Assembly: GCA_002205965.3 (NCBI GenBank)
Contig: NADL03000529.1
Coordinates: forward strand, 62,001 to 126,000
Reading direction: 5' to 3'
DNA: 64,000 nt
Origin: Kappaphycus alvarezii
Taxonomy: Eukaryota; Rhodophyta; Florideophyceae; Gigartinales; Solieriaceae
Below the pieces are notes generated by a model, which made no database searches, had not been told where the DNA came from, and was given only the letters and a program-made list of their open reading frames with translations. Shown one piece after another: positions 5,377-56,154 of this stretch. The translations under genes and the position numbers were made by a program. The stretch's first letter is position 1. Each line of letters starts with the position of its first letter.

Positions 5377-6408
5377 TGATGGAGATAAATTTCCAGAAAG
5401 TGAAATTTTTAGAGCCAATTTTCCCAATATGGAGGCATTCATGTCGGCAAGAGTGCTACCAAACTATTTTTGTGGAAAAACAAGACATGGACAACTGAGA
5501 AGGACCCACATAATCCAATTTTGTATTAAAGGGTAGTTTCTTCCTAATATGCTCAGGGAATAGCGTTGAAGAAATTTGTCTGAGGGCAGAAGTTGACTTT
5601 AAATTTCTATAGTACTTGATTCTGCGCTTGAATTTGTCTCCCAACTTGTTTGAATTCTCAATGAGGTAGCAGTTTAATCAGAATATGTAGGGTTCTAATT
5701 CAAACCTTAAAATCTCAAATAAACGTAATAGCTAACATAGGCTGAATTTAAAAAAGTCATGTGGCTGATAAAGACCAATCAAAAGAAACTTTAAAAATAA
5801 ATATCTATTTTACCCCCTCAAAACCACTATTTGGGAGGTAATACCCAAGCCGCGCTTTCAAAATACCCATAGTACCCCTAAAATCCACACATAAATATTT
5901 GAACGGTTCGAAACTTCCCATTTCCTCTACTAAAATATATAGACCCCTAAAGATATTTTGATTTACTTAAATACCGAGCATAATCAGTCACTAATTTCCT
6001 ATTTCCCATTCTGCCTCGACGGAGGAAATTTTCTGATCCGATTTTACGGAGTACACCTTCTCTTTGGCAAGCAATCCTTTTCCCTGATTCCTTGACATCG
6101 AGCAGGTCTTCCGCCCTCTACCCTGCTCACTTTCTCCCATGACTTTTCCTATTATACATCTCAGCGACAACACTTTTCTTGACGGGGTTTCGGCTCTTCT
6201 TTACGACCTTCTTAGCCTAACGCTTACTTACGTCGCCCTCTTCTTACTCTATAAAAAGATTGCGGACGAACTTGCTAATCTTGTTCTTAGTCTGCTTCAA
6301 GAGGTATTCATCGGCGACAGTTGGCCCATAGGCGAATATTTGGAGGCCATTTAAAGGACGCGAAAGGCGACTGGGGGAAATTAGGGTAGATAGGCAGGGT
6401 CAAGCCAT
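5377..6408 (-). repeat. Long-type 5' LTR relic with acidic-ORF remnant
   Basis: It starts at 5,377 with TGATGGAGATAAAT, the decayed form of the TGATAGGGGTAAAT terminus of the younger LTRs, immediately next to the gag leader of relic 1. The paired motifs GAAGTTGACT and GAATTTGTCTCCCAACTTG are kept in order. Inside lies a remnant of the acidic ORF (minus, ATG at 6,408-6,406, end near 5,998). Its residues RPLNGL, AYGPT, ADEY, QTK, KFVRNLFIE align without gaps to the intact copies, but it has a stop at codon 3. The outer edge of the LTR beyond 6,408 could not be fixed. Confidence 0.75.
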
Positions 6409-25644: not shown

Positions 25645-25950
25645 TGATAGGGGTAAATCGGCGGGGGAAGAGATCCTTAGAACCAATTACCCTGAGAAGG
25701 AGGTGTTGCGAGCGACAAAAGTGCTACCTTGGTATTGTTGAACGAACAAAAGGGTGTGTATATAGAGAAGAGTTGAGAAAGCTACAAGCAAGTATAAAAG
25801 GGGCAGGGTCTACCACCGACGCTCTGCGACTAGCGTAAGAAAAAGTTTTCTTGGGTCTGAAGTTGACTCTCAACTTCCTATTACTCCGGACTTGGCTTGA
25901 AGTTGTCTGCCAACTTGCTTGACCTCTCCATGAGGAAGCAGTTTACTCAG

Positions 25951-25958
25951 CTTATATA
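25951..25958 (-). promoter_or_regulatory. TATATAAG box, probable LTR promoter
   Basis: TATATAAG on minus lies after the acidic ORF and just before the R-U5 portion shared by all LTRs of the family. The same box sits at the equivalent place in the other long LTRs. Confidence 0.6.
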
Positions 25959-26124
25959 GACTTCTGGCTACCCCTAAAGTCCGAACAAAATTACAGAAGG
26001 TACCAGGAAATGCACAGAAACAATTTGTGTGGATGACATACTCTAAACAAAAGATACTTAAGAAAATAACAATCAATGAGGTTCTCTTATTTCCCATTCT
26101 CTAAATCAGATCCAAACAACTCCT

Positions 26125-26655
26125 CTAAAATATCCATGCTGTCCAAGCAGTCCCCACAAATACTGCGAATGGCTCACAGCTCTCTATTCCCCCCTGGGAG
26201 ATATCTAGACTACTAAAGATATCTCCATCCGGTTCCATCGTGGGCACAACTTGATCCATACTCTCCATTCCAGGCCCCACCAGTCCAACACTTTCCATGC
26301 CCCCTGTTCCCTCATCCTCAGTCTCCTCCTCCTCCTCTTCCTCCTCCCCATTCTCCTTCTCCTCATCCTCCTCCTCTTCATCCTTCTCCCGAGCCTCGTA
26401 CACTAGCTCAGGGGCTAACCATTCCTCGAAGGACTCCTCGCTCTCCTCCTCGACTTTCTCAGTCTCATCCTCACTTACCTCCCTCGCTTCTGCTTCTATG
26501 AAGAGGCGGCGAACGAACTCGATGATTTGCTTCTTTGTTTGCCACCGGATGTAGTCGTCGGCATCGGTTGGCCCGTAGGCGGCGAGATGAAGGCCATTGA
26601 TGGGACGGGAAGGGCTGTTTTTGGAAATAGGGACAGAGGGGCGAAGGTTGTTCAT
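26125..26655 (-). CDS. LTR-encoded acidic protein, copy 1 (C-terminal frameshift)
   Basis: This 176-codon ORF lies in sense within solo LTR 1. Residues 1-60 form a mildly basic module with the signatures RPINGL, AAYGP, DADDY and QTKKQIIEFVRRLF. Then come a Glu/Asp-rich low-complexity tract and a C-terminal segment with repeated GME motifs. It is not related to gag or pol, and I recognise no domain. Compared with the 38 kb copy, one base is missing in the codon run for EPFADICGD. The tail therefore leaves frame and ends early, losing the Cys-containing end. The ATG is the one shared by all copies, 117 bp behind a TATTTAAA box. The acidic tract suggests a nuclear, chromatin or transcription-related role; this is inference only. 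Confidence 0.75.
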   Translation of the reverse strand: MNNLRPSVPISKNSPSRPINGLHLAAYGPTDADDYIRWQTKKQIIEFVRRLFIEAEAREVSEDETEKVEEESEESFEEWLAPELVYEAREKDEEEEDEEKENGEEEEEEEETEDEGTGGMESVGLVGPGMESMDQVVPTMEPDGDIFSSLDISQGGIESCEPFAVFVGTAWTAWIF

Positions 26656-26764
26656 TTTGAGAGACGTTGGGGAATGGGAGGCAATGTAGGGTGTTTTGAG
26701 TGTGTGGGGGGAGAAGGATGATGAGTAAAATGATCAGGGGCATTTGGAACTTAGGATAAAGGGG

Positions 26765-26772
26765 TTTAAATA
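26765..26772 (-). promoter_or_regulatory. TATTTAAA box upstream of acidic ORF copy 1
   Basis: TATTTAAA on minus lies 117 bp upstream of the ATG and is followed by a C-rich tract. Position and sequence are kept in all three younger long LTRs. Confidence 0.6.
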
Positions 26773-27023
26773 GGCTCCCGGGGCAGGTTCTATAGATTAG
26801 GAATAGGTAAAATAAATCTGCAAGGGATTTTGCAGTAGTGCATTTGCGTCCTTCTTCTCAAAAAGGCGAATTTAGAGGAGAAGGTAAGCTAAAAGGGAAA
26901 AGGAACTTGATTCGGGGTCGATTCAGAGGGTTAAATACAGTATAAAAATATCTAGATAAAATGGAAGTAAATTTGGAAATGAGGGTGGGAGAAGTTAGGG
27001 GCGGGATCGTTGTAGGTTGCTGG

Positions 27024-27141
27024 ATTACACGAAGGGAGGACCATTTCCTGTATTACATGAAGGGAGGATCATTTCCTGTATTACATGAAGGGAGGACCAT
27101 TTCCTGTAGAACATGAGGGGAGGACCATTTTTTGTATTACA
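27024..27141 (-). repeat. 28-bp tandem repeats at outer U3 end of solo LTR 1
   Basis: About four units of GAAGGGAGGACCATTTCCTG plus TATTACAT form the LTR terminus. The last unit ends in the TGTATTACA border. The 37.6 kb LTR has the same repeats. Confidence 0.9.
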
Positions 27142-37575: not shown

Positions 37576-37695
37576 TGTAATACAAAAATGGCCCTCCCCT
37601 CATTTAATACAGGAAATGGTCCTCCCTTCACGTAATACAGGAAATGGTCCTCCCTTCACGTAATACAGGAAATGGTCCTCCCCTCGTGTAATCCA
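37576..37695 (+). repeat. 28-bp tandem repeats at outer U3 end of LTR 2
   Basis: About four units with the core CAGGAAATGGTCCTCCCTTC, the inverse of those at 27,024-27,141. Confidence 0.9.
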
Positions 37696-37943
37696 GCAAC
37701 CTACAACGATCCCACCCCTAACTTCTCCCACCCTCATTTCCAAATTTACTTCCATTTTATCTAGATATTTTTTTACTGTATTTAACTCTCTGAATCGACC
37801 CCAAATCAAGTCCCCTTTCCCTTTTAGCTTACCTTCTCCTCGAAATTCGCCTTTTTGAGAAGAAGGACGCAAATGCACTACTGCAAAATCCCTTGCAGAT
37901 TTATTTTACCTATTCCTAATCTATAGACCTTGCCCTGGGAGCC

Positions 37944-37951
37944 TATTTAAA
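37944..37951 (+). promoter_or_regulatory. TATTTAAA box upstream of acidic ORF copy 2
   Basis: It lies 117 bp before the ATG and is followed by a C-rich tract (CCCCTCTCCCCCCACACACC). The ATG context is CAAAATGAAC with A at -3. Confidence 0.65.
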
Positions 37952-38060
37952 CCCCTTTATCCTAAGTTCCAACTGCCCCCGATCATTTTACTTATCACCC
38001 CTCTCCCCCCACACACCCAAAACACCCTACATTGCCTCCCGTTCCCCAACGTCTATCAAA

Positions 38061-38714
38061 ATGAACAACCTTCGCTTCTCTGTCCCTATTTCCAAAAACA
38101 GCCCTTCCCGTCCCATCAATGGCCTTCGTCTCGCCGCCTATGGGCCAAACGATGCCGACGACTACATCCGGCGGCAAACAAAGAAGCAAATCATCGAGTT
38201 CGTTCGCCGCCTCTTCATAGAAGAAGAAGCGAGGGAGATAAGTCAGAGAGAGGCTGAGAAGGTCGAGGAGGAAAGCAGAGAGTCCCTCGAGGAATGGTTA
38301 GCCCCTGAGCTAGTGTACGAGGCTCAGGAGGAGGAGGAGGAGGAGGAGGAAGAGGAGGAAGAGGAGGAAGAGGATGAGGAGGAAGAGGATGAGGAGGAAG
38401 AGGATGAGGAGGAAGAGGATGAGGAGGAGGAAGAGGATGAGGAGGAGGAAGAGGAGGAAGAGGAGGAAGAAGAGGAGAAGAAGGATGAGGGAATAGGGGG
38501 CATGGAAAGTGTTGGACTGGTGGGGCCTGGAATGGAGAGTATGGATCAAGTTGTGCCCAAGATGAAACTGGATGGAGATATCTTTTGTAGTCTAGATATC
38601 TCCCAGGGAGAAATAGAGAGCTGTGAGCCATTCGCAGATATTTGTGGGGACTGCTTGGACAGCATGGATATTTTAGAGGAGTTGTTTGGATCTGATTTAG
38701 AGAATGGGAAATAA
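38061..38714 (+). CDS. LTR-encoded acidic protein, copy 2 (intact)
   Basis: This is a 217-codon uninterrupted ORF in the U3 of a long LTR. Residues 1-60 form the conserved module (RPINGL at 17-22, AAYGP at 25-29, DADDY at 31-35, KKQIIEFVRRLF at 41-52). Residues 60-88 are charged and include EEWLAPELVYEA. About 65 residues of nearly pure Glu/Asp follow. The C-terminal part has two GMES motifs and a Cys-containing CEPFADICGDCLDS segment. There is no signal peptide or membrane segment. It is not similar to gag, protease, RT or integrase. Family unknown; a nuclear acidic regulator or chaperone-like role is conceivable but unproven. The GAGGAGGAAGAGGATGAG repeats coding the acidic tract vary in number between copies. 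Confidence 0.8.
   Translation: MNNLRFSVPISKNSPSRPINGLRLAAYGPNDADDYIRRQTKKQIIEFVRRLFIEEEAREISQREAEKVEEESRESLEEWLAPELVYEAQEEEEEEEEEEEEEEEDEEEEDEEEEDEEEEDEEEEEDEEEEEEEEEEEEEKKDEGIGGMESVGLVGPGMESMDQVVPKMKLDGDIFCSLDISQGEIESCEPFADICGDCLDSMDILEELFGSDLENGK
38328..38490 (+). repeat. GAG/GAA/GAT trinucleotide tract
   Basis: An imperfect GAGGAGGAAGAGGATGAG repeat inside the acidic ORF. It is longer here than in the 26 kb and 50 kb copies. Confidence 0.9.
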
Positions 38715-38842
38715 GAGGACCAAATTAATTGTTAGTTTCTTAAGTATCTTTTGCTTAGAGTATATTGTCCACACAAAGTATTTTCATGCATTTCTTGGTA
38801 TCTTCTGTAGTTCTGTTCGGACTTTAGGGGTAGCCAAAAGTC

Positions 38843-38850
38843 TATATAAG
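38843..38850 (+). promoter_or_regulatory. TATATAAG box, probable LTR promoter of LTR 2
   Basis: It lies 129 bp after the acidic ORF stop and before the R-U5 block common to all LTRs of the family. Confidence 0.6.
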
Positions 38851-39158
38851 CTGAGTAAACTGCTTCCTCATGGGGAGGTCAAGCAAGTTGGCAGACAACT
38901 TCAAGCCAAGTCCCGAGTAGTAGGAAGTTGAGAGTCAACTTCAGACCCAAAAAAACTTTTTCCTAAGCTGGTCGCAGAGCGTCGGTGGTAGACCCTGCCC
39001 CTTTTATACTTGCTTGTAGCATTCTCAACTCTCTTCTATATACACACCCTTTTGTTCGTTCAACAATACCACGGTAGCACTTTTGTCGCTCGCAACACCT
39101 CCTTCTCAGGGTAATTGGTTCTGAGTATCTTTTCCCCCGCCGATTTACCCCTATCAGC

Positions 39159-40200
39159 TTCCTCTCCCGGGGTAGCCCTTCCTGGGCCACAGCAGCCCTT
39201 CTCCAAGTCGATTCCCCACTCTCCCCCAGCGAAGCTACCTTTCAATCCTTGGCTTCAATTCATCCCCCGCTCCCCATCCCAATCACTCCCATGCCCCCTC
39301 ATGGTTTGCCTCCGGCGCTAAAGTTCTCGGTCTCGGATGTCCGCCGTGCCATTCACAGCCTGGATCCTTCAACCGCTCCTGGGGCCGATGGTCTATCCCC
39401 AGTGTTCCTGCGAATGCTGCTTCGCCCGGCAGGTGGGGTCACGCCCGCGAGGGATTGCCTACATGCCCTGACAAAGTTCCTCAACCTCTGTTTGAACAGC
39501 GATCTGCCGGCCGCGTGCCGCCCGTATTTCTGCGGAGGCCGTCTTACTGCGCTGCCGAAGCCAAACGGGGGAATCCGTCCGATTGCGGTTGGGCTTCTCT
39601 ACCGGCGCCTAGTTTCTAGGCTCGCGGCACACAAAGCCACCCCCGCCATCCGCTCTTACCTTCCGCCCCATCAGGTCGGGGTAGGCGTCAAGAACCGCAT
39701 CGATGCAATAATTCATTCTGTGCGTCGTCTTTCCCAGAGACCCGAGTTCCACGATCACGTCTTGGTCCAGATAGATGCTCGCAACGCTTTCAATTGCATC
39801 TCCCGCCAGCGCATTCTGGAAGCCGTACAGACACATGCCCCAGGCCTCGCACGGTGGGTACACTCTTGTTACGATGCTCCTACAGAGCTTGCTTTCGGAC
39901 CCTACTATGTCCGTAGTTCAGAGGGCACTCAGCAAGGTGATCCCCTCGGTCCCTTGCTCTTTGCCCTGGCTCTCCATCCGCTCTTGCTATCGTTACAGGA
40001 GAAGTTCTCACCTGCCCTGAACGCTTGGTACGCAGATGACGGTAACATTGTTCTTCCTCGATCCCAAGCCGCTGCTGCCATCCGTTTCATCCAGCTTGAA
40101 GGAGGTCCACTAGGGTTCCAGCTCAACCTTGCCAAGACCCAAGTTTACGGCTTCTCCCCTTCCCACTCCCCTTTGGCACTTCCTTGCCCCTTTTCAACCC
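39159..40200 (+). pseudogene. Reverse transcriptase part of the non-LTR element
   Basis: Counting from TTG 39,249, the RT motifs are: GADGLSP (45-51), PKPNGGIRPIAV (103-114), LVQIDARNAFN with the first catalytic Asp (172-182), GTQQGDPLGPLLF (226-238), NAWYADD with the catalytic Asp pair (258-264), and GFQLNLAKTQVYGF (289-302). All catalytic residues are intact. The true start lies upstream and is lost. Between about 40,160 and 40,205, near a C6 run, the reading frame shifts by -1 into the next segment. The reading is unambiguous, so the loss of frame is recent or a sequencing error. Confidence 0.85.
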
Positions 40201-41590
40201 CCCTGGTTTTATCGTGCTGGGATCCCCGATTGGCTCGGACGCTTTTGTTTCCCAATTTTTCGCAGGCCGCCAAAACGAAGTTGACCGCATCTTCCAATCC
40301 CTTCGAGACTTGGATGATGCTCAATTGGCTTTCCACTTACACTGCTTCTGCGCGAACGCCTCCAAGGTCATGCACTTGCTGCGTACGCTTCCCTCCACTC
40401 AATCTGCGGTTCTCGCCGCTAGCTTCGATCAGAAGCAGAGGGAAGCGTTCCACCAATTGCAGCTGCCCTGCCCAGAGCGAGCCTGGCTCCAAGCCTCTCT
40501 CCCCTTCTCAATGGGCGGTCTAGGTCTCCTGCAAACTTCAGACATTACCGAGGCTGCATACGCAGCATCTGTAATTGATTCTTTTGGACTTATCTCCGAC
40601 CTGCTTACCCTTTCCCAGGACCGCCACTTGGAAGAGATCCCTCGGTCTGCCATCTCGCTCTTATCCTCCCGCCACCCGCAGCTGTCTTCGTCGCTTACAC
40701 CTACGGCTCTTTTCGAGTGTTGTTCATCGCCGGTCCCCGGCGAAAGGCTCCAGTCTGCGATCACAACTGAACTCATGCTATCGAAGTCCGATAGCTTGTT
40801 CTCGTCCGCGGCAGTCCACGACCGAGCACGGCTCCTCTCCGTGCGCACATCCTCCGCATCGACTGTTTTCTCTTCGCTTCCTCACCCCCACCGCGGTACG
40901 TACATGTCCTCTTCCGCCTGGAAAGTCGCTCTGGCTCTACGTCTCGGCATCGCGCTATTCCCTGGATCTACTCGCTTTCCGGTCTGCTCCCGCCGCTCGG
41001 CCGACATCGCACCCGTCTTAGATCCAAGTGGTCAACACGCGTTGACCTGCAAATACGAAGACGGAATGACTCGTCGTCACCACATCCTCCGCAACGTTCT
41101 TGCCCGCTACTGCAAGGAAGTTGGAATCGTCGCCCTCGTTGAACATCCGCTCCTCCACCAGGTTCCCGACTCATCTGGGCATTCGGAGTCCCCCGTGCTA
41201 CGAATGGATATTTACATACCCGCTGCATACGGGCTTCACAGTACCGATATAGCCGTCGACGTTACTGTTGCCCACCCCTCCGCACGCCGCCACATTTCGC
41301 CAAGTACAGTTACTGCCGGCGCCGCCGCGACACTCGCAGAGCGCGAGAAATATCGTCATTACGGCACTTACTGCAACCGAAACGATATCCTCCTCTCCCC
41401 CGTCGGGATTGACATCTATGGCGCCTTGGGCGACGATGGTAAGGCTTTTTTCCGCCGCCTTGCTTCCTTCGCTGCTTCCCGTCGCGGTTCCTCCCCTCAA
41501 CAGGAGCTCCGCGACTTCGTTACCCGTTTTGCATTTAGTCTCCAAATAATGCAGACGCGAAAAGTTTCTACCCGCCGCCCGCATCCGTAG
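40184..41590 (+). pseudogene. Thumb and restriction-like endonuclease part of the non-LTR element
   Basis: This 468-codon frame takes over from the RT frame. It starts with GFIVLGSPIG (8-17), the usual segment behind RT motif E. It then has QASLPFSMGGLGLLQTS (103-119) and AAYAASV (124-130). From 279 it shows DPSGQHALTC, RRHH (297-300), a Glu at 320, MDIYIP (341-346) and IAVDVTVAHPS (356-366). That pattern resembles the Cys/His plus RH...D...D-x-T core of restriction-like endonucleases of R2-type elements. The exact clade cannot be named by eye. Stop TAG at 41,588-41,590. Confidence 0.8.
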
Positions 41591-43063: not shown

Positions 43064-43426
43064 TGATAGGGGTAAATCGGCGGGGGAAGAGATCCTCAGA
43101 ACCAATTACCCTGAGAAGGAGGTGTTGCGAGCGACAAAAGTGCTGCCGTGGTATTGTTGAACGAACAAAAGGGAGTGTATATAGAAGAGAGTTGAGAAAG
43201 CTACAAGCAAGTATAAAAGGGGCAGAGTCTACCACTGACGCTCTGCGACCAGCGTAAGAAAAAGTGTTCTTGGGTCTGAAGTTGACTCTCAACTTCCTAC
43301 TACTCGGGACTTGGCTTGAAGTTGTCTGCCAACTTCCTTTATGCTTTGTGTTTGACTTAACTTGTTGAGCGCCCCGCTCGGGTATGCTGGCTCCCAAGTA
43401 GTCCTACCATTTCATGCAAACAGCCC

Positions 43427-43434
43427 CTTATATA
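43427..43434 (-). promoter_or_regulatory. TATATAAG box in 3' LTR
   Basis: It sits roughly 90 bp before the shared R-U5 block, equivalent to the box in the long LTRs. The 5' LTR has it at 48,609-48,616. Confidence 0.6.
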
Positions 43435-43555
43435 GAGTTTTCAACCCTCACTATCTGTAGCATCTATACAGTACCTATGTGCCAAATCTGCACCGCCACA
43501 GTACAGTGCAAAGCATCCCTCTAAAAATAATTAAAAATATAATTGTAAGTACGGT

Positions 43556-43670
43556 GCCAGCTCAGCCAGCACAGCATGCCAACTCGGCCAGCACAGCATG
43601 CCAACTCGGCCAGCGCAGCATGCCAACTCAGCCAGCGCAGCCAACTCAGCCAGCGCAGCATGCCAAGGAA
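43556..43670 (-). repeat. 22-bp tandem repeats in U3
   Basis: Units of GCCAACTCGGCCAGCACAGC plus AT; one unit more than in the 5' LTR. Copy-number change is the main LTR difference. Confidence 0.9.
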
Positions 43671-43693
43671 TATCTACAATTTTCATTATATCA

Positions 43694-43708
43694 CGCCCCC
43701 TCGCTCAA
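43694..43708 (-). other. Polypurine tract
   Basis: GAGCGAGGGGGCG on minus directly abuts the 3' LTR, where plus-strand priming is expected. Confidence 0.8.
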
Positions 43709-43814
43709 GACGAACGTCCCGACTCGTCATCATTCTTCTTCTGATTCTATTAATGTAATTTGCTTATTGTTAAAACATGAGGCCTTTCAAACGAATAGGG
43801 ATGCAGTTGATTAC

Positions 43815-44480
43815 CTATAAAATATTCCAAAAAGTAGGTGCGCGTTTGATAGTTCCAATCATCTTTTTGGCTTTTCCGTTTGACATAAGAGCGTAGTCGA
43901 GACATGTCTTCAGCTGAATCCCTTTCTCCTTCAAAACTCGAAGCAGTGAAGTTGCAGTAAAACAAAGGGCGTTATCCGAGATTATCCTTTTTGGAAGACC
44001 AAACGGTTCAATTATTTCTTTTTCGATGAATCTCAGGACCACTTCAGCATTGGTCTCCTCACCTGCAACTGCTATTGGCCATCCAGTAAGATGTTCCACC
44101 CCTATAAGGAGATATTTGTTTCCGGAAGAAGTTTCCTTGAACGGGCCGCGAAGTCAATTGAGAAGGTTTCAAAGAGACGGAAACTGGAAAACTTAGAGTT
44201 GTCTTATACTTTCGTATTGGAGTGAATTTTTGGCAGTTGTCGCAGCTTTTCACGAAATTATAGACGTCCTTATGGATACCGGGCCACCAGAATCTCTCAG
44301 TTACGAATTTTTTGGTTGTTTCGAGATCCCAATGCCCTAGCTCATCATGAAAGTCCTCAAGATCTTCATTCTTTCTTTCAAACGGGCCACTAGTCGGGGA
44401 CCGGCTTTAGTGTGCGGGAAGAGTTTCCCATTCCACAATGTAAAAGCCTTTTGATTCCTGCGTACCCAATTTCTATGTTC
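43815..44480 (-). pseudogene. Integrase of the young Ty3 element, broken and truncated
   Basis: In sense order there is a zinc-binding HHCC domain (FHDELGH followed by SCDNCQKF), then the catalytic core: SIDF with the first Asp, EHLTGWPIAVAGEE, and PKRIISDNALCF with the second Asp. At the third position the frame reads SNGKAKKMIG, where this family normally has Glu, so Lys replaces the catalytic Glu. Frames change near 44,165 and 44,110. The protein ends about ten residues later, without the C-terminal domain, and the polypurine tract follows after roughly 100 bases. Enzymatic activity is not expected. Confidence 0.8.
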
Positions 44481-44483
44481 AGA

Positions 44484-45032
44484 TCAACCTTTCTCATTTC
44501 TAGTCCATCGAGAATTTAATAGTCCGTGAATATTAGCTTCGTACTCGTTATCGTTCGGCAACTGCAACTCGGCGACTCCGACGATGTCCTCCGAAGCTTT
44601 TTCATTTGGAATCAGTGCGTCCCTCAAGCGGGATAGGTAATCGGCAGGCTGATTATTGCGTCCGGGTCTATACACAATTTCAAACCGATATTCTGCGAAA
44701 ATGTCGAGCCATCGGGCCAAGCGGTGATGTACATCCTTCTTTTGGAATGCTGTTTTAAGTGCCTGGTGATCAGTTATCAAGACAAATTTCTCGAGTGATA
44801 AAAGGTATACGCGAAACTTTTTCAGCGCGAAGACGACAGCTAGCGCTTCTTTCTCGCAGACTGAGTATCTCTTTTCCGCGTCATTCAGAGTTCGGCTTGC
44901 GAATTGAACAGGGTGTAGTCTTCCGTTTTCATCTTTTTGGGACAAAACGGCACCCAAAGACCGTTCTGAGGCATCTGTCTCCACAACGAATGGTCTCTTG
45001 AAATCTGGGTACATGAGAACTGGGGGACACAT
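44484..45032 (-). pseudogene. RNase H domain of the young Ty3 element
   Basis: This 182-codon frame has FVVETDASERSLGAVLSQ (15-32) with the first catalytic Asp, EKEALAVVFALKKF with the catalytic Glu, LITDHQAL with an Asp, and a RPGRNNQPADYLSRL end. The motif set is complete. It is separated from RT by two frame changes, near 45,205 and 45,030. In an intact element it would degrade the RNA strand of the RNA-DNA hybrid. Confidence 0.85.
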
Positions 45033-45939
45033 AGCTTATCTTTAAGCTCCTGAAATGCAGTTTCCATTTCCTTGTTCCAGTAAAATTTTCCGTTCTTCGT
45101 AGTGCTGGCATGTAACGGTGCTGCAGTCTTGGCGAAATCTTTGATAAATCTTCTGTAATATGAGGCCAGTCCTAAGAAGCTTCGGACCTCCGTCTTTGAA
45201 GCGGGCCTTGGTGCCAACTTATTTTTTTCGTTTTCTCTGGATCCACTCTAATTCCCTCTTGGTCGACGATATGACCGAGTAATTGGATAGAAGTTTTCGC
45301 AAAGAAGCATTTGCTCAACTTAATTTTCAAGCTATACTCCGATATCCTCTCCACAACTGTCTTGACGTGCGAGATGTGCTGATCCAATGTTTCTGAGAAT
45401 ATGACGACATCATCGATATAGACTCTTGCGAATGGAAGTCCTTTCAAAACCTCGTTCATCATTCTTTGGAATGTAGCTGGTGCATTCATGAGACCAAAAG
45501 GCATCACTTCGAACCTGAACGTACCGGCTTTGCTGGTAAAGGTTGTTTTTTCCTTACATTTTTCATCCAATGGAATCTGCCAATAGCCAGTGTAAAGGTC
45601 AATTGAGGTGAAATATCTCCCGTCCTTCAGGTCCTCGAGGATCTCCTCCATGTTCGGAATCGGAAATCGATCGGGTATCATTCTCTGGTTCAGTTGTCGG
45701 TAATCGACGCAAAAACGCAGCTTTCCATCCTTCTTTGGTGCGACCACAACTGGAAACGACCATGGGGATGAAACTGGTCGAATAATATCATTTTTCAGCA
45801 TACTTGTAACATTTTCTGAGATAAATTGGTCATATTTTGGCGGTTGACGTCTAGGCTTGTGGTAAATCGGTTGAGTGTCGGTAAGTTCGAACGAGTGAGT
45901 AACCGGTACACTTGCTTGTCTAAATCTGAAACGCTCCAT
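44885..45939 (-). pseudogene. Reverse transcriptase of the young Ty3 element
   Basis: The main frame, 45,172-45,939, carries PWSFPVVVAPKKDGKLRFCV (59-78), TSIDLYTGYWQIPL with catalytic Asp (111-124), MPFGLMNAPATFQRMM (146-161) and YIDDVVIFS (174-182). It ends with LLGHIVDQEGI. The connection domain follows in another frame (EVRSFLGLASYYRRFIKDFA), with the change close to a T7 run at ~45,220. The active-site residues are intact. The N-terminal overlap with the preceding 45,795-46,214 frame suggests another shift at ~45,940. Confidence 0.9.
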
Positions 45940-46214
45940 GCAATTACTTCGGAAGATGTTAACATGTCGGATATTTTCAGTGAGGCGGGGGCGGGAAGGT
46001 GCTGCACTTTTCCTTGGATTTCTGCCATTTGGCGCCCTTTTTCTTCTTGATCCTCAACCTCAATATTTTGAAGGACCTCTTCCGTCGTGCTCACATCTTC
46101 ATATATGGAATTCGCCGTATTCTTATTTTCATTGCAAAGGTAATCTTCTTTCATGCTCCGAATTCTGTCCTTTGATTCGATATCATCGCAAAAAGAAACA
46201 CATTCGGGTTTCAA
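45795..46214 (-). pseudogene. Linker between protease and RT
   Basis: An acidic 139-codon frame between gag-protease and RT with no recognised motif. It would be joined to both in an intact polyprotein. Position and charge suit the spacer usually found before RT. Confidence 0.5.
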
Positions 46215-46281
46215 ACTTATCCTAGAATCCAGTCGTCATCTGTTTCAAACCCGGAATCATAATCGTCCCATGCCATGTTCA

Positions 46282-48075
46282 TTACCCCCGAGGGTACCCT
46301 TTTCCACTTCCGAAAGTGTTAGTTGGTTCCGAATCTTCGCTGTCATAGCTAGAAGTGAAATCTTCACTGTCCGTTTCTTTTAAATCTTCAGGATGCGTGC
46401 TTTTGTCGAAATCCAGGGGCATCTTCACGGTTCTGCCGTCAATATTAACTGAAACCATTTGGTTGCCCAAGTCAATGCATGTTCCTAGTCTTTCCATTGT
46501 GGGGCAGCCAATGATTGCATCGAAAGGGAGATCCGGCATGACAAGAAAGTCTACATCAACTTTAGAGTCCCCAAAGAACACGGAAACCTTGTCAACAGTG
46601 CCCATGCATTTTGAGACGGTTCCATCCGCTACAGTTATTTTTCGAGTCGTTGGAGTAATTTCGAGACCTAGATCTGTCACCAAAGTTTCTGAAATGAGGT
46701 TTGGAACAGCACCCGAATCGAAGAGAGCTTGGGTTTTCATACCCAATACTTTGACTGGTACCAGCTTAAGACGTCTTGGTGCTGTCGAGGCCGATTGAAG
46801 AAACAGTTTCTTACCCTTAGCGGACTTATTAGACCTGATAATTTTTTTGAGTTCTTTTCTCGCATCCTCTGCGTCGCCCCTCAAAAGTTGACCAAACGTT
46901 ATCCCAGTTGGGGCCGATGCAAGCTCAGCCACCAAATTGTACCTCTTCACATACTCTAGTACGTCCTTAGAGATACTCTTAACTTTCTTACTCTTTTTCG
47001 TCTTCTTGGCCGGAGTGACTCCCACTCCTGGAACAACTTGATCAGACCTCTTGGTTCGAGGAGGTACAGGTGCTGGGATATGCTCCAGCATTCCATACTC
47101 TAGCCTAGGTTTCTTCGATAAAATGTTCCCTTCCCCATCCCTTTTTGTCACATTGACTTGACTAATCTCTTCAGCGATGGATACGTTACCGGCATCCGTC
47201 AACCTTTGATCCCTTCTATTTTGTAAGATTTTCACCTCTGGTCCTGACTCACTCCTTGCTTCCGATAAATTTGCTCTTCTGTTGTCTTTAGACCAGCAGT
47301 TACTTTCATGATGCCCATATCGACCGCACTTTGCACAACGAGTGTTTCTATGTGGATTATCAGGACACCTGTTTGCAAAGTGTCCAGGCTTGTGACAGTA
47401 AGAACAGACTTCTGCGGCCTTAGGGGCCCCAGACTGGTTCTTCTTAATGGTAAGAGTAAGGCTTTCCAACTGCGAGGTTATCATGTCAAGTCGATTATCG
47501 AATCGGGTTTCCAACCTTTCTTCCAAGTTTTTGACATCGCTCCTGACAGATTCTAATGCCGCTGCACTAGTAGCCGGCCTTTGATAATTCTTTTCAGGAT
47601 GTACGATAGACATCGATGTGCGGGTTTCCCTCGGTACCTCACTCAGTGACTGAAACGTCTCCGAATTTTTGACAAATTCTACTATGGTACCCTTCAGTTC
47701 ATCAAAAGTGTGAGGGCCCTTGATGAGGAGGAAATCGGAGAGCCGCTTATCCCCCATAGCCGCCTTACGCAGCATTCCGTACTTGGCTTGGGCGTTGAAC
47801 CCAGCCTTTTCATAAAGATCACACAAGTACACCAATGAGCTTAACAAATCGTCGAAGTTGAGCCGGGCCTCTATGGCGGTACGAATCATCTCATCTGGTT
47901 CTACCTCCTTAGCATACTCTTTCACAAGCCACTCACATACCTCACCGAAGTTACGCCCATTCCCGTTAAGAGACCACCCGTCGATAAACTTGGACTTATA
48001 TTTGTGCTTTGCGTCACCATGAAGATAGGCGAAGATACTTGCGGCCTTCTCTTCATCGCCCTTCTCTCGCATCAC
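46282..48075 (-). CDS. gag-protease polyprotein of the young Ty3 element
   Basis: This 597-codon frame has a capsid-like region up to ~150, a coiled coil (~170-212), two CCHC zinc knuckles (CSYCHKPGHFANRC at 224-237 and CAKCGRYGHHESNC at 247-260) that bind genomic RNA, a lysine-rich stretch (~357-368), and an aspartic protease. The protease has the ALFDSG active site (450-455) and IIG near 521-523. The natural gag start is probably the ATG at 48,159. From there a frame with FTG runs into EDVEEFLYTYVNVV after a one-base shift near 48,120, so the first 28 or so codons are out of frame. Family assignment is firm. Confidence 0.9.
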   Translation of the reverse strand: MMREKGDEEKAASIFAYLHGDAKHKYKSKFIDGWSLNGNGRNFGEVCEWLVKEYAKEVEPDEMIRTAIEARLNFDDLLSSLVYLCDLYEKAGFNAQAKYGMLRKAAMGDKRLSDFLLIKGPHTFDELKGTIVEFVKNSETFQSLSEVPRETRTSMSIVHPEKNYQRPATSAAALESVRSDVKNLEERLETRFDNRLDMITSQLESLTLTIKKNQSGAPKAAEVCSYCHKPGHFANRCPDNPHRNTRCAKCGRYGHHESNCWSKDNRRANLSEARSESGPEVKILQNRRDQRLTDAGNVSIAEEISQVNVTKRDGEGNILSKKPRLEYGMLEHIPAPVPPRTKRSDQVVPGVGVTPAKKTKKSKKVKSISKDVLEYVKRYNLVAELASAPTGITFGQLLRGDAEDARKELKKIIRSNKSAKGKKLFLQSASTAPRRLKLVPVKVLGMKTQALFDSGAVPNLISETLVTDLGLEITPTTRKITVADGTVSKCMGTVDKVSVFFGDSKVDVDFLVMPDLPFDAIIGCPTMERLGTCIDLGNQMVSVNIDGRTVKMPLDFDKSTHPEDLKETDSEDFTSSYDSEDSEPTNTFGSGKGYPRG

Positions 48076-48221
48076 AACGTTGACATATGTGTAAAGAAAC
48101 TCCTCAACGTCTTCAGTCTTGCCCCTGTGAACGTTATACGAGCAGCGTTGAGATCCATGATTACAGAAAAGAAATCCCCCCGAAGTGTTCCTTACTACTG
48201 CTCAACTCGAATACCTCGGGT

Positions 48222-48245
48222 GCAACCCCCTCCACAAGAGTACCA
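48222..48245 (-). other. Candidate tRNA primer-binding site
   Basis: Directly inside the 5' LTR the minus strand reads TGGTACTCTTGTGGAGG two bases after the LTR end. TGG is the complement of a tRNA CCA end. I cannot assign the tRNA by eye. Confidence 0.55.
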
Positions 48246-48247
48246 AA

Positions 48248-48853
48248 TGATAGGGGTAAATCGGCGGGGGAAGAGATCCTCAGAACCAATTACCCTGAGA
48301 AGGAGGTGTTGCGAGCGACAAAAGTGCTGCCGTGGTATTGTTGAACGAACAAAAGGGAGTGTATATAGAAGAGAGTTGAGAAAGCTACAAGCAAGTATAA
48401 AAGGGGCAGTCTACCACTGACGCTCTGCGACCAGCGTAAGAAAAAGTGTTCTTGGGTCTGAAGTTGACTCTCAACTTCCTACTACTCGGGACTTGGCTTG
48501 AAGTTGTCTGCCAACTTCCTTTATGCTTTGTGTTTGACTTAACTTGTTGAGCGCCCCGCTCGGGTATGCTGGCTCCCAAGTAGTCCTACCATTTCATGCA
48601 AACAGCCCCTTATATAGAGTTTTCAACCCTCACTATCTGTAGCATCTATACAGTACCTATGTGCCAAATCTGCACCGCCACAGTACAGTGCAAAGCATCC
48701 CTCTAAAAATAATTAAAAATATAATTGTAAGTACGGTGCCAGCTCAGCCAGCACAGCATGCCAACTCGGCCAGCGCAGCATGCCAACTCAGCCAGCGCAG
48801 CCAACTCAGCCAGCGCAGCATGCCAAGGAATATCTACAATTTTCATTATATCA
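48248..48853 (-). repeat. 5' LTR of the young Ty3 element
   Basis: 606 bp. Same sequence as the 3' LTR apart from one missing 22-bp unit and one 2-base deletion. Confidence 0.95.
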
Positions 48854-49451: not shown

Positions 49452-49807
49452 TGTTAGGCGCGTGATGATAGGAACGGAATTTTTGTCGCCGTCATCTACA
49501 GACCTTTAGTTTACTGTACTACCTCTCCTTGTGCAAATTTTCTTATTGTTCCGGTCCTTCCTCGTCCTCCCTGAGCCTCGCTTATCATTACCGCGGTCCT
49601 CTCCAAATTTACTTCCTTTTTATCTAGATATTTTTATACTGTATCTACCTTTTTAAATCGATCCAGAATCAAGTTCTTTTCCCCTTTCTGATTAGGTTCT
49701 CCTCCAAATTCGCTTTTTTGGAGAAAAAGGGCGCAAATACACTACTACAAAAACGCTTACAGATTTATTGTACCTATTCGTAGTCCATAGAATCTGCCCC
49801 TGGTGCC

Positions 49808-49815
49808 TATTTAAA
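49808..49815 (+). promoter_or_regulatory. TATTTAAA box upstream of acidic ORF copy 3
   Basis: It lies 116 bp before the ATG at 49,924. The box and its flanks (GCCTATTTAAACCCCTT) are kept although surrounding bases have changed. Confidence 0.6.
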
Positions 49816-49923
49816 CCCCTTCATTCCAAGATCTAAACGTACCCGATCATTTTGCTCATCAATCCTTTCCCCCTACACACCCCAAACAACCTCATTACCT
49901 CCCATTTCCCAAAGCCTACCAGA

Positions 49924-50494
49924 ATGACCAATGTACGCCCCTCGAAATCCATTTCCAAAAATCGCCATCCCCGCCTCCTAAACTCTATTTCTCTACTCCC
50001 TTTCGGACCTACTGACCGCGAGGACTATCTGCGCCGGCAAACCAAGAAAATGGTCATCTAATTCGTGCGTCGCCTCTTTACCGAGGATGAGACGGAGGAG
50101 GTAGGTAAGGGGCAGGAGTGGGACATCGATGAGGGAGCTGGGGAGAACTTCGAGGAGTGAGTAGCCCCTTGAATGGTCTATGAGGCTAATAACGAGGAGA
50201 ATCAAGAGGAAGAGGAGGATGACGAGGACGAGGGCGAGTTGGATGAGATAACAGGGGGCATGGAATGTGTTGGACTGGTGGGGTCTGGACTGGAGAGTAT
50301 AGAACGAGTGGTACCGACGCTGGAACCAGATGGAGATATCCGTAGTAGTTTAGATATCTCCCAGCAAGGAATAGAGAGCTATGAGCCGTTCGCAGATATT
50401 TGTGGGGACTGCTTGGACAGCATAGATATTTTTGAAGATTTGTTTGGATTTAGAGAATGTGAAATAAGAGGACCTCATTCATTGTTAGTTTCTT
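49924..50494 (+). pseudogene. LTR-encoded acidic protein, copy 3 (two nonsense codons)
   Basis: The reading frame starts at ATG 49,924. It keeps SISKN, PFGPTDREDYLRRQTKK, FVRRLFTEDE, the shorter acidic tract, GGMECVGLVGSG and YEPFADICGDCLDSIDI in one frame. It has TAA at about 50,059 (within the IIEFVRR motif) and TGA at about 50,158. There are no frameshifts up to the C-terminal end. Most of the sequence behind the stops still reads like the intact protein, so loss is fairly recent compared with the LTR divergence. Confidence 0.75.
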
Positions 50495-50595
50495 AAGTAT
50501 CTTTTGCTTAGAGTATATCATCCACACAAATTGTTTCTATGCATTTCCTGGTATCTTCTGTAGTTTTGCTCGGACTTTAGGGGTAGCCAAAAGTC

Positions 50596-50603
50596 TATAT
50601 AAG
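50596..50603 (+). promoter_or_regulatory. TATATAAG box, probable LTR promoter of solo LTR 3
   Basis: Same position as in LTR 1 and LTR 2, in the context AAAAGTCTATATAAGCTGA. Confidence 0.6.
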
Positions 50604-50921
50604 CTGATTGAATCGCTTCCTCATGGAGAAGTCATGGAGAAGTCAAGCAAGTTGGCAGACAACTTCAAGTCAAGTCCCAAATAGTTAGGAAGCTGAGAGT
50701 CAACTTGAGACACAAGAAGCATTTATTTTACGCTAGTCACTGAGCATAGGTGGTAGACCCTGCCCCTTTCATACTTGCTTGTAGCCCTCTTAACTCTTTT
50801 GCATATACAGTCCTTTTTATTCGTTCAACTATACCACAGTGGCACTTTTGTCGCTCGCAATACCTCCTTCTTGGGGTAGTTGTTTCTAAGTATTTCTCCT
50901 CCCGACGATTTACCCCTGTCA

Positions 50922-52630: not shown

Positions 52631-53875
52631 ATGGCTGGACTGATTGATGAGCTTGCTAGCATGGGTACACAACTCCCCAATGAGCTGCGAATAAGGCTAC
52701 TTGTTCTTTCCATTGAGGCACCTGAGTTGCAGGCTGTATTCGCAGCTATCAAGACCCTTGCAGATGAAAAGGCTGATTGGAACGTTGTCTCTAGCCAACT
52801 ACTTGAGGAGCATAGAGAAATGAAATCCGGATCTCGGAATTATCACGTTATAGCAGCGGCAAGTACTGGCCAAGGACACTTGTACTGTCAAATATGTGAG
52901 AGAAATGTACATTCAGCCAGCAAATGTTTCTGGAATATAAATAATCCGGAAAACAAGATTCAACTTCGGCTAGACCAAAAGAAACAGGAATCAAAAAACA
53001 ATGCTGTACAGGAAGATGATAAAACGAAGTATAACAGAAAGAAGAATAGATATCATCGGGCTTGCATAGCAAGAGCAAATGTCGCATCAGCAAAACAGCA
53101 GTCGAGTATGATGCTTGATTCCGGCACAACCACTCATATGGTAAATCAGCTTGAGAAACTCACGCAAACAAAAGAATGTGATGTGAAGATTTCCCTCGGA
53201 GAAAACTCGAAGATAAAAGGGTCTCACACTGGACCACGTGAAGTTACATGGACTAATGAGTATTCTGATACAGATGTCTCTCTAAGCAATGCTCTTTTCT
53301 CAAAGGACCTTGCTATGAGTCTCCTGTCTGTTCCCTCACTTGCTCGTGCTCTAGTATGCACTCTATTCTTACCTGATTGCGCTCTTCTGTTGGATATGAC
53401 CAAAAATTATAAGCTACTTGGAAAAGCCGAAGTTAATAAGGACGGGCTGTACTACATGGGGGAGGCACAGAACTCAGATGATCAGTTAAAGATCCAAGAA
53501 AACTCCACGATGAGAGCAGTAATCGAAACTGCACAAAGGCACGAGGCCATTGACATGAATACATTTGGTGCTTCTAGCTCTCAAACAGTATCCTTTGCAT
53601 CATCAGCACCTGGTGTTGCTGAAAATAGTGAACCTATTGATTTATCATCAAAAGAAACAACTGACAGTCATATGTCTCCCAACAAGGCTGACTCTGGTTT
53701 CTACGCGGATTCTGATGGGGACTCTCCAGCGGAAGTGGACAAAATGAGTGGCATGTCGATTACCAGCTTACTTATAATGAGAAAGAAAAGCCTCCACCGT
53801 CCCCATCGACAAAATATTCTGAGGACTGTGAAATCTGGCACCGTGGGTTTAGCCATCAAGGTTCAGCTAAAATGA
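52631..53875 (+). pseudogene. gag zinc knuckle and protease of the copia element
   Basis: This 414-codon frame, continuous with gag, carries a CCHC knuckle (CQICERNVHSASKC, 86-99) and an aspartic protease site, MLDSGTTTHM (161-170). A pre-integrase region with DGLYYMGEA follows. Its last ~45 codons are out of frame: the true continuation (EWHVDYQLTYNEKEKPPPSP, then CEIWHRGFSHQ) lies in the next frame, with the shift near 53,735. The ATG at 52,631 is internal to gag, not the natural start. Confidence 0.85.
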
Positions 53876-54909
53876 TTCGAGAAGTGGTCAGGAATGGGGA
53901 CTTGCCTAAAGTACCTACACGGTCAAAATGCAAGCCTTGTATCCATGGAAAGTTTCGAAAGTCCTATAAGGGCAGTATCACAAAGGCAGATAAGCCTGGT
54001 CACTTGGACATCGATGTTGTTGGTAAGATTAAGCAAACATCTCCACGCGGGGGGAAATATCTTGTTACCATTGTTGATGAAGCTACAGGCTTTATTTTTG
54101 CAAAGCCTATTTCGAATAAGGAGGATGCGTCTCCTGCGCTGCTGGAATTCATAAAGTGGTTCGAACGTCAAGTAGAGAGTACTGTGAACTCTTTACATTC
54201 AGATGGTGGTCGGGAATTTACTGAAGGACAACAAGTGCTTCAGGTAAATGGCGTTGATATAGACATAACATCCAGCTACACTCCAGCATTAAACGGCTTT
54301 GTTGAGCGAACCCAGGGCGTCATTATCAATGCAACACGTTCATCTCTGTCTGCTTCGAAAGTACCATTGCAGTTCTGGCCATACGCAGTGAAACATACCG
54401 TAGATTGTAAGAATGCAATCCCACACACCCAATCAGGAAAATCACGATATGAGGCTTTATTTGGTACAAAATCGCCAATAATTAAGCATTTGCGCGTTTT
54501 GGGGTGGAGAGTCAGTTACTTAACTGACCCCGGAAAGAATTTTAAGTCCAACAAACTCGCACCACTCATGGCTAGTGGTCTTAATCTCGGACATGACAAA
54601 GGTGGCGTCTACTTCATCCTTTGCCCGGGACACTCTTCAAAGGTCATAAGAATAAAGCGTGTGACCTTTGATGAGGATAACTTCCCTAGGCTTAAATACC
54701 TAGTAACCACTGTCACAAACAATTCTCTACAGAGGGAAGAGTGGCATACTGACTTTGACTCAGATGGGACACACACTACTGATGAAGAAATTAATAGCTG
54801 CGAGCAGTCAGACAAAAAACATCTCGTCAGTCGACCATTATCACGATTCTTTAGACCAGTATCACGATTCTTTAGAACATATTTCTCTTTGCGGCAGTGC
54901 AAGTTCTAA
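53740..54909 (+). pseudogene. Integrase of the copia element
   Basis: After the zinc-binding HRGFSH and CKPCIHGK segments, the frame has the catalytic residues D46 or D48 (HLDID), D111 (LHSDGGREF) and E145 (NGFVERTQG), counted from 53,872. VPLQFWPYAV and SRYEALFGTKSPI follow, as usual for copia integrases. The catalytic triad is intact. A duplicated SRFFRPVSRFFR stretch marks the end before the next frame change, near 54,830-54,900. Confidence 0.9.
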
Positions 54910-55105
54910 TGACAGCGAAGGGGGGGAGTTCGTAGCTCGTGCCACAGCCTCTGAAGGCCCTTTAAATGGCTTGACACGATCAATATCCACCAAAGACGAA
55001 CCGAAACTTCGAGATGCTCTCTCAAGTGAGGGAAGTACCTATTGGAAACATGCGATCATGGAGGAAATGGAGCTGAGAAATTTAGCAGTAAAACACGGAA
55101 AATAG
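54755..55105 (+). pseudogene. Linker and first part of copia RT
   Basis: The frame includes DEPKLRDALSSEGSTYWKHA and IMEEMELRN, the conserved opening of copia RT. It changes frame near 55,080 into the main RT frame. A 17-base direct repeat (CACGATTCTTTAGACCA-like) near 54,840-54,875 lies close to the shift from integrase. Confidence 0.8.
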
Positions 55106-56154
55106 AGTCAGAACTCCCTCCATCAGGTGAAGAAGCTTTGCTCTCCTTATTTATTCTCAGACTAAAACGCAACTCAGAGGGGCTGCCTGCTCGGTTCAAA
55201 GCAAGATTAGTTGCAAGGGGAAACATGCAGCGTATATATGGAAGTGGATCATCTGAGTTTTATGCACCTGTCATATGTATGGAGATGGTCAGACTACTTC
55301 TAGTCCTTTCCGCTGCTTTCGGATGGGCTCGTCAACAGTCAGATGTCAAGGGGGCGTTCCTATACGCAGAACTCCCAGTAGACACGCCAATATGGATCAG
55401 ATTGCCAAGTATCCCAGGCATCGAAGGTCTGGATGGTAGAAAATTCCGTTTGCTCAAGAGTCTCTATGGTCTACGACAAGCACCTAAACTCTGGTATAGA
55501 AAGCTCAGAACTTGTCTCAAAGAAATTGGGTTTGAGGAGCTCCGGATGCATGAATGCGCCTTTATGCTTAAAAGGACTGGTAAAGTTGTTATTCTTCTGT
55601 GTTACGTGGACGATACGGCTATTTTTGGAGATATTAACCTCATTGAATACGTCAAGGATGAACTAAGGAAAACATTTGAGGTCATTGACCTTGGAGAGCT
55701 ATCCTTCTTTTTAGGAGTAAGGATTGAAGATCATGGTTCCTTTCTCTTACTATCCCAATCCTCATATACTAATCAGATTATTGAAATGGCTGGTATGGAC
55801 ACAGCAAAGTCAACTCAGTCTCCACTGGCAATGGGACATGTCTTGTATGAATCTCGAAAACCACTTTTGCAGAAAGAAAAGGTTGCTATGGAACATACGC
55901 CATACAGGGCAATATTGGGATCTTTACTGTACTTGGCAACGAGAAGCAGGTCGGACATAGCTACTGCGGTATCATTGCTTGCCAAGTTTAATGAAAGCCC
56001 TGCACCGAAACATTGGAATGCGATGAAGTACCTAATTAGATACTTGATTGGAACAAAAGGCACCGGGATCATTATAAATAAGGTTTCAATGTTCACTCTA
56101 ATGCTGACTGGGGCCGTGATGAAGAACAGCGAAGGTCCAGATCTGGAACAGTAG
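55042..56154 (+). pseudogene. Reverse transcriptase of the copia element
   Basis: The frame carries ARLVARGNMQ (54-63), QQSDVKGAFLYAEL with catalytic Asp (98-111), LLKSLYGLRQAPKLWYRKL (137-155), LLCYVDDTAIFG with the Asp pair (185-196), LSFFLGVRIE, and SLLYLATRSRSDI. All RT motifs are intact. Its final ~20 codons run out of frame, and the RNase H begins in the next frame near 56,095. Confidence 0.9.

Follow-up and report, generated by a model that had tools for sequence, protein, structure and literature searches.

Protein genes inside long terminal repeats (LTRs) are rare, and the usual example comes from one mouse retrovirus. Among plant Ty3/gypsy elements, Ogre, Retand and Grande carry an accessory ORF between the LTR and gag or after pol; this ORF is present once per element and is absent from solo LTRs. 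The tas gene of foamy viruses is not limited to the LTR. The U3 region of mouse mammary tumour virus (MMTV) is described as holding an ORF for Sag and Naf and, besides the genomic-RNA promoter, a U3 promoter, P2 (PMC9412291). Tas of foamy viruses is an accessory protein that is expressed from a second, internal promoter and activates the virus's own promoters (PMC8670036). The VANC proteins of Arabidopsis VANDAL transposons are element-encoded, sequence-specific and trans-acting on their own family (PMC10398659 and PMC5735166).

The Ty3/gypsy family described here carries an ORF in its LTRs that is almost certainly a real, selected LTR gene. Like MMTV sag/naf, the ORF appears to lie within U3 and is found in the LTRs at both ends of gag-pol; a U3 promoter of its own is putative here. 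Unlike MMTV, the carrier is a high-copy Ty3/gypsy retrotransposon, the predicted product is an acidic, soluble-looking protein, and part of the gene appears to be exchanged as a cassette. The LTR ORF gave no Pfam match to the Sag superantigen at E 0.01. The likeness to foamy virus Tas is one of how the system would work, where activation is inferred for the present protein and no homology was found. The same kind of comparison applies to VANC anti-silencing, with sequence-specific self-action suggested here by the cassette exchange; VANDALs, in contrast to this family, are DNA transposons without LTRs, and no shared domain was found with Pfam. Ogre, Retand and Grande share the combination of a Ty3/gypsy backbone with an accessory ORF, which here sits in the LTRs. 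No LTR retrotransposon with such an LTR gene was found in the open PMC literature searched, a body that covers a minority of subscription papers. The layout itself is known from MMTV; the cassette pattern and a gene-less short-LTR derivative are new here.

ORF-bearing LTRs in the window and the genome

The genome searched is a 336-Mb eukaryotic assembly of 884 contigs, and the window is the whole 64,000-nt stretch analysed, C525:62,001-126,000. An initial annotation had described three LTR units in this window, and alignment confirms their coordinates, their TG...CA borders and their mutual similarity, with units A and B 88.6% identical over 1,583 columns and units A and C 79% identical over 1,350 columns. 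A, B and C are LTRs of one Ty3/gypsy family. The features of the window are as follows.

6,250-6,393, minus strand: remnant of the N-domain within an old, diverged LTR; the adjoining gypsy interior is 65-70% identical
25,645-27,141, minus strand: unit A, a solo LTR with target duplication (TSD) CAGGG, from its TG...CA ends and flanks
25,951-25,958: TATATAAG in unit A
26,125-26,655, minus strand: LTR ORF of unit A, open for 176 aa, with a frame shift that removes the family C-terminus
26,765-26,772: TATTTAAA in unit A
37,576-39,156, plus strand: unit B, a long ORF-bearing LTR without TSD and with no adjoining gag-pol
37,576-38,880, plus strand: inferred U3 of unit B, which holds the ORF, from the homology border
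37,944-37,951, plus strand: TATTTAAA, putative promoter box of the LTR ORF in unit B
38,061-38,714, plus strand: intact LTR ORF of unit B, 217 aa
38,843-38,850, plus strand: TATATAAG, putative promoter box of the genomic RNA in unit B
38,881-39,156, plus strand: inferred R-U5 block in common with short LTRs, 95-96% identical
43,064-48,853, minus strand: Ty3/gypsy element with short LTRs at 43,064-43,693 and 48,248-48,853, TSD CATGC
49,452-50,921, plus strand: unit C, a solo LTR of a diverged subfamily, TSD ATAAC
49,808-49,815: TATTTAAA in unit C
From 49,924, plus strand: LTR ORF of unit C, with 3 in-frame stops
50,596-50,603: TATATAAG in unit C

The TSDs of A, C and the short-LTR element are each 5 bp long, and the flanks of unit B, TCGCG and GCTTC, contain no matching target duplication. 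The sense ORF that had been claimed for all three units is fully open in B (217 aa), but it is frame-shifted in A and interrupted by 3 in-frame stops in C. Both boxes were located in A, B and C where they had been reported, TATTTAAA 116-117 bp 5' of the ATG and TATATAAG 3' of the stop. Two other element remains were observed nearby, namely a LINE-like RT region directly 3' of unit B (window 39,249-41,590) and, at window 52,631-56,154, an element of Ty1/copia type that contains Pol_BBD, rve, SH3 and RVT_2.

With unit B as genome query, the best 40 of 5,255 first-look candidates were scored and yielded 42 matches, 39 of which (B included) span nearly the whole LTR at 89-100% identity; the resemblance of the units is not chance. 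L009, L010 and L011, each formed by a same-strand pair, prove to be full elements: both of their ends are ORF-bearing long LTRs, and a PBS-like start follows the 5' one. Over ~4.4 kb, their interior matches the short-LTR gypsy element in the window at 98.7% (L009, L010) or 97-98% (L011, in two pieces) identity. A copy from a second subfamily on C836 has LTRs that are 99.6% identical, with 2 mismatches in 1,554 columns; they enclose gag and, in broken frames and the order known from Ty3, aspartyl protease, RVT_1, RNase H, H2C2 and rve. The domain order in L049 is Asp_protease_2, RVT_1, RT_RNaseH, Integrase_H2C2 and rve, with pol split into more than one frame, and L053 presents an ORF-bearing 5' LTR followed by gag-pol.

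The remnant of the N-domain at 6,250-6,393 served as protein query in a further search, in which the best 150 of 3,481 candidates were scored. All 150 matched, 149 of them without a stop across the 48-aa stretch, and among these best 150 we found 16 same-strand ORF pairs at a spacing of 7,481-7,613 bp and no opposite-strand pair at that spacing; the C836 pair alone of the 16 was sequence-read from end to end. Full elements with two ORF-bearing LTRs around gag-pol, as the initial annotation had proposed, are thus present in the genome (L009, L010, L011 and C836, with the 16 spaced pairs), and long units flank gag-pol in L053 as well. At C679:4182-19429, three same-strand ORF matches lie 7,558 and 7,552 bp apart, in what looks like a tandem LTR-interior-LTR-interior-LTR array.

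Inspection of the element borders reveals the PBS-like TTTGGTAC directly 3' of 11 of the 24 near long LTRs whose 3' ends are listed (B counted; A, partly listed, left out), and a purine-rich end 5' of the 3' LTR in L010, L019, L020 and L026. Target duplications were script-detected for 7 long LTRs, two of which (L014 and L018) represent one insertion on two contigs. The family combines TG...CA ends and TSDs with a PBS, a purine stretch and the PR-RT-RH-INT order of Ty3/gypsy elements.

Integrity, selection and apparent exchange in the LTR ORF

The 217-aa protein of unit B consists of an N-domain (residues ~1-60), an acidic tract (~88-145) and a C-domain (~146-217). Across B, L046 and L048, net charge is +3 to +5 in the first 60 residues, -31 to -50 in the acidic tract and -10 to -12 in the last 46 residues, where 14-18 residues are hydrophobic. 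The predicted layout is reminiscent of a recognition domain followed by an acidic activation domain. Searches of the protein collection returned 33 candidates for the N-domain, none at E <= 0.001, and 1 candidate for the C-domain, no homologue, while a profile of the window copies against PDB sequences reached a best E of 0.23 with no solved relative. With no homologue or solved relative, the proposed function rests on composition. Pfam matches to Mpp10, DNA_pol_phi, Nop14 and Presenilin in the scan at E 0.01 were all under the cut-off, reflect acidic low complexity and were rejected.

Of 27 near copies, 6 keep the frame intact and 21 have it broken. L024, with an ORF that continues from an upstream ATG, counts as intact; the ORF in the 5' LTR of L010 has a shifted middle, L005 starts where its contig does, and one of the L022 copies is incomplete at the fetched edge. 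Among 20 further loci, a biased sample picked mainly for long open frames, 12 keep the frame to the family C-terminus at 183-223 aa (L045, with a shifted middle, among them), and 3 gave no ORF under the script's rule. A stop-to-stop frame of at least 180 codons occurs in 85 of the 150 N-domain matches (best 150 of 3,481), which is an upper bound on intact ORFs; stop-to-stop length was itself rejected as a measure of intactness, two examined cases (199 and 213 codons) being frame-shifted. The proposal that each full copy holds the gene twice stands insofar as the ORF occurs in both LTRs, but in none of the four full elements read is it intact in both (L009 0/2, L010 1/2, L011 0/2, C836 1/2). 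The ORF of L053 is shifted inside the acidic tract.

Frame slips cluster in the acidic GAG/GAA/GAT repeat, for example at window 38,330-38,490, and in 26 copies compared with B the acidic tract holds 28 non-triplet indels, the N-domain 10 and the C-domain 5. The slips in the acidic tract may represent either a hypermutable switch or long-read error. L014 (C761) and L018 (C423) are the same solo LTR with the same flanks, and the ORF is open in one and shifted in the other, such that some frame breaks may be allelic or assembly errors; because these contigs are duplicated or allelic, copy counts may be inflated. Indels in multiples of a triplet (34 of 62 in the acidic tract) were discounted as a sign of selection, since slippage of a 3-bp repeat itself proceeds in threes.

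To describe selection, dN/dS was calculated over the 62 codons of the N-domain, with values of 0.19 for B-L048, 0.19 for L046-L048 (bootstrap 0.05-0.40), 0.15 for L048-C, 0.23 for B-C and 0.24 for B-L019d; several intervals reach 0, and B-L025d is printed as 0.00, because synonymous sites saturate. The two wrong sense frames give 0.82-2.02 in diverged pairs. One antisense frame is also low in such pairs (0.19-0.64), probably as a shadow of the same third positions. For the C-domain, dN/dS is 0.25-0.50 and rises to 1.00 for some decayed pairs. These ratios show purifying selection on the diverged subfamilies, which are near synonymous saturation. Young copies carry no selection signal (L046-B 0.77; A-B 2.37), as expected after insertion, yet they offer no support for selection either. 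A single-copy host gene caught by chance, the counter-case named in the initial annotation, does not describe this ORF, which is high-copy and under purifying selection in diverged subfamilies.

A second deep clade (clade II) is represented on C93, beside L048, by another LTR with a deeply diverged, intact ORF of 197 aa. When the best 150 of 9,953 candidates for a clade II query were scored, all 150 matched, many with at least one stop. In five clade II copies that were selected for absence of stops, the ORFs are 199-202 aa long (L058 counted from the second ATG), and each of the five has TATATAA 137-138 bp past the stop. TATTTAA precedes the family ATG by 84-85 bp in four copies (L058 from the second ATG) and by 70 bp in L059. 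The similarity of the clade II N-domain to that of B was matched by 0 of 1,000 shuffles. Between the clades, pS is 0.71-0.81, pN is 0.31-0.34 and dN/dS is printed as 0-0.19, a value of 0 reflecting synonymous saturation; within clade II, dN/dS is 0.31-0.73. Clade II carries VIVISDSSDEDEE, which we take to resemble a SUMO-interacting motif and which would again point to the nucleus. No PBS follows the LTR in L055-L057, and the stretches examined contain no full clade II element.

The promoter boxes were examined across the family. Of 51 copies, 45 keep TATTTAAA and 38 keep both boxes; some of the 51 stretches are incomplete, and the copies, being kin, do not amount to 45 independent cases. TATTTAAA arises in 4.5% of 200 mononucleotide shuffles of B. 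Family-wide, a TATA-like box is located 70-117 bp before the ORF and a second ~125-138 bp after the stop. The conserved box at a near-constant distance suggests that the ORF has its own putative U3 promoter. Long and short LTRs become homologous at 38,881, 38 bp past the first base of TATATAAG, and stay so to the LTR end at 95-96% identity. The simplest reading would place the U3/R border at 38,881 and the ORF within U3.

Over the 225 bp 5' of the ATG, B is 87% identical to L048, a pair with an ORF pS of 0.60, and 82% identical to L046, a pair whose N-domains are 93% identical. From these two values, the upstream region may be constrained, mosaic or both, and its conservation may be mosaic rather than functional. 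In 50-bp blocks, L046 (C836) and L053 (C741) differ by 0-6% as far as LTR position 317. The difference rises to 10% in the box-containing block (318-367) and to 12-30% over 368-771 (5' UTR, N-domain and start of the acidic tract), falls back to 0-6% over 772-1,222 and is 8-20% beyond. The two loci share 100% identity in the C-domain, 74% in the N-domain and 96% in gag-pol over ~4.3 kb, and the L053 N-domain is 90% identical to that of L048. Taken with this last likeness, the mosaic indicates that protein-conserved N-domain variants appear to be exchanged between elements. In this one clear pair, promoter and N-domain have the look of a cassette swapped in next to a C-domain that hardly varies.

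A proposed role for the LTR protein

On the basis of its composition, we lean with modest confidence towards a regulatory role for the LTR protein, which would be acidic and nuclear and act in trans on its own LTRs. Box 1 (TATTTAAA) would start a short mRNA for an acidic nuclear protein, predicted to comprise a mildly basic N-domain, an E/D tract and a C-domain that is acidic and hydrophobic in the manner of an acidic activation domain. This protein would act in trans on the LTRs of the family, either boosting transcription or preventing silencing, and box 2 (TATATAAG) would then start the genomic RNA at R. A swap of the N-domain together with its upstream region as a cassette would be expected if the N-domain sets which LTRs or partners are recognised. 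With the gene inside the LTR, recombination that leaves only a solo LTR can still preserve a gene copy.

More tentatively, the gene could be a self-specific regulator in which recognition domain and promoter are swapped as a matched cassette among elements that are otherwise nearly identical and the effector is fixed, with open-frame solo LTRs as free-standing regulator genes; the possible outcome would be a genome-wide modular activation/anti-silencing network parasitised by integrase-deficient, regulator-less derivatives. The LTR-gene arrangement is here old, high-copy and selected between retrotransposon subfamilies, and it makes element-encoded self-regulation testable. Some solo LTRs can be genes, not just promoters or scars.

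We rank the regulator first, a chaperone or integration role second and negative feedback third. As an acidic chaperone or integration tether, the protein would bind histones or the integrase complex and steer or protect that complex instead of regulating transcription. Acidic histone-binding tracts are long E/D stretches, which the composition of the LTR protein resembles, and the SUMO-interacting-motif-like VIVISDSSDEDEE of clade II and the loss of the gene from the short-LTR derivative along with the C-terminal part of integrase would fit as well. We nevertheless consider this role unlikely, given that it needs neither a separate U3 promoter box nor exchange of the upstream region with the N-domain.

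Negative feedback would make the protein a copy-number control factor, expressed from solo and 3' LTRs, that the derivative does without. Ty1 copy-number control, which uses an internally initiated Gag fragment, provides a comparison, and solo LTRs with frames are numerous in this family. Naf of MMTV, from the U3 ORF, is described as a negative transcription regulator (PMC9412291). A repressor that harms its own element would, however, be hard to keep selected through the element lineage, and the composition of the C-domain is more activator-like, which leaves this reading quite unlikely. A functionless passenger, either a host gene fragment or a chance ORF caught in the LTR, would suit the broken frames in 21 of 27 near copies and the neutral pattern in young copies, but it is very improbable and largely refuted by dN/dS of 0.15-0.24 between subfamilies and at most 0.19 between clades, by intact ORFs in two clades and by boxes at near-constant distances.

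The short-LTR derivative

The short LTRs in the window, 606 and 630 bp in length, lack the LTR ORF, and the interior between them is 98.7% identical to the interior of the long-LTR elements. Homology to the full interior stops just past the integrase core match, with the C-terminal part of integrase and most of the 3' region absent. When the U3 of the short LTR was used as query, the best 40 of 1,168 candidates were scored at 96-100%, and among these 40 are nine short-LTR pairs at 5,166-5,187 bp (on C112, C152, C398, C575, C616, C62, C717, C803 and C822). The derivative is common and young. It is apparently a non-autonomous recombinant with the same gag-RT interior and a different U3.

Since the derivative spreads without the gene, the gene product is either dispensable or supplied in trans and is not needed in cis; joint loss of the gene with part of integrase would favour supply in trans. 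With a shared interior and no gene, the derivative is a natural comparison for the role of the gene. In the long-LTR elements, the region 3' of integrase (L049:4600-5980 and, on the minus strand, L009:2008-2808) is long and coding and has no Pfam match in the pieces scanned; by eye, this post-integrase region appears as two related copies of one domain.
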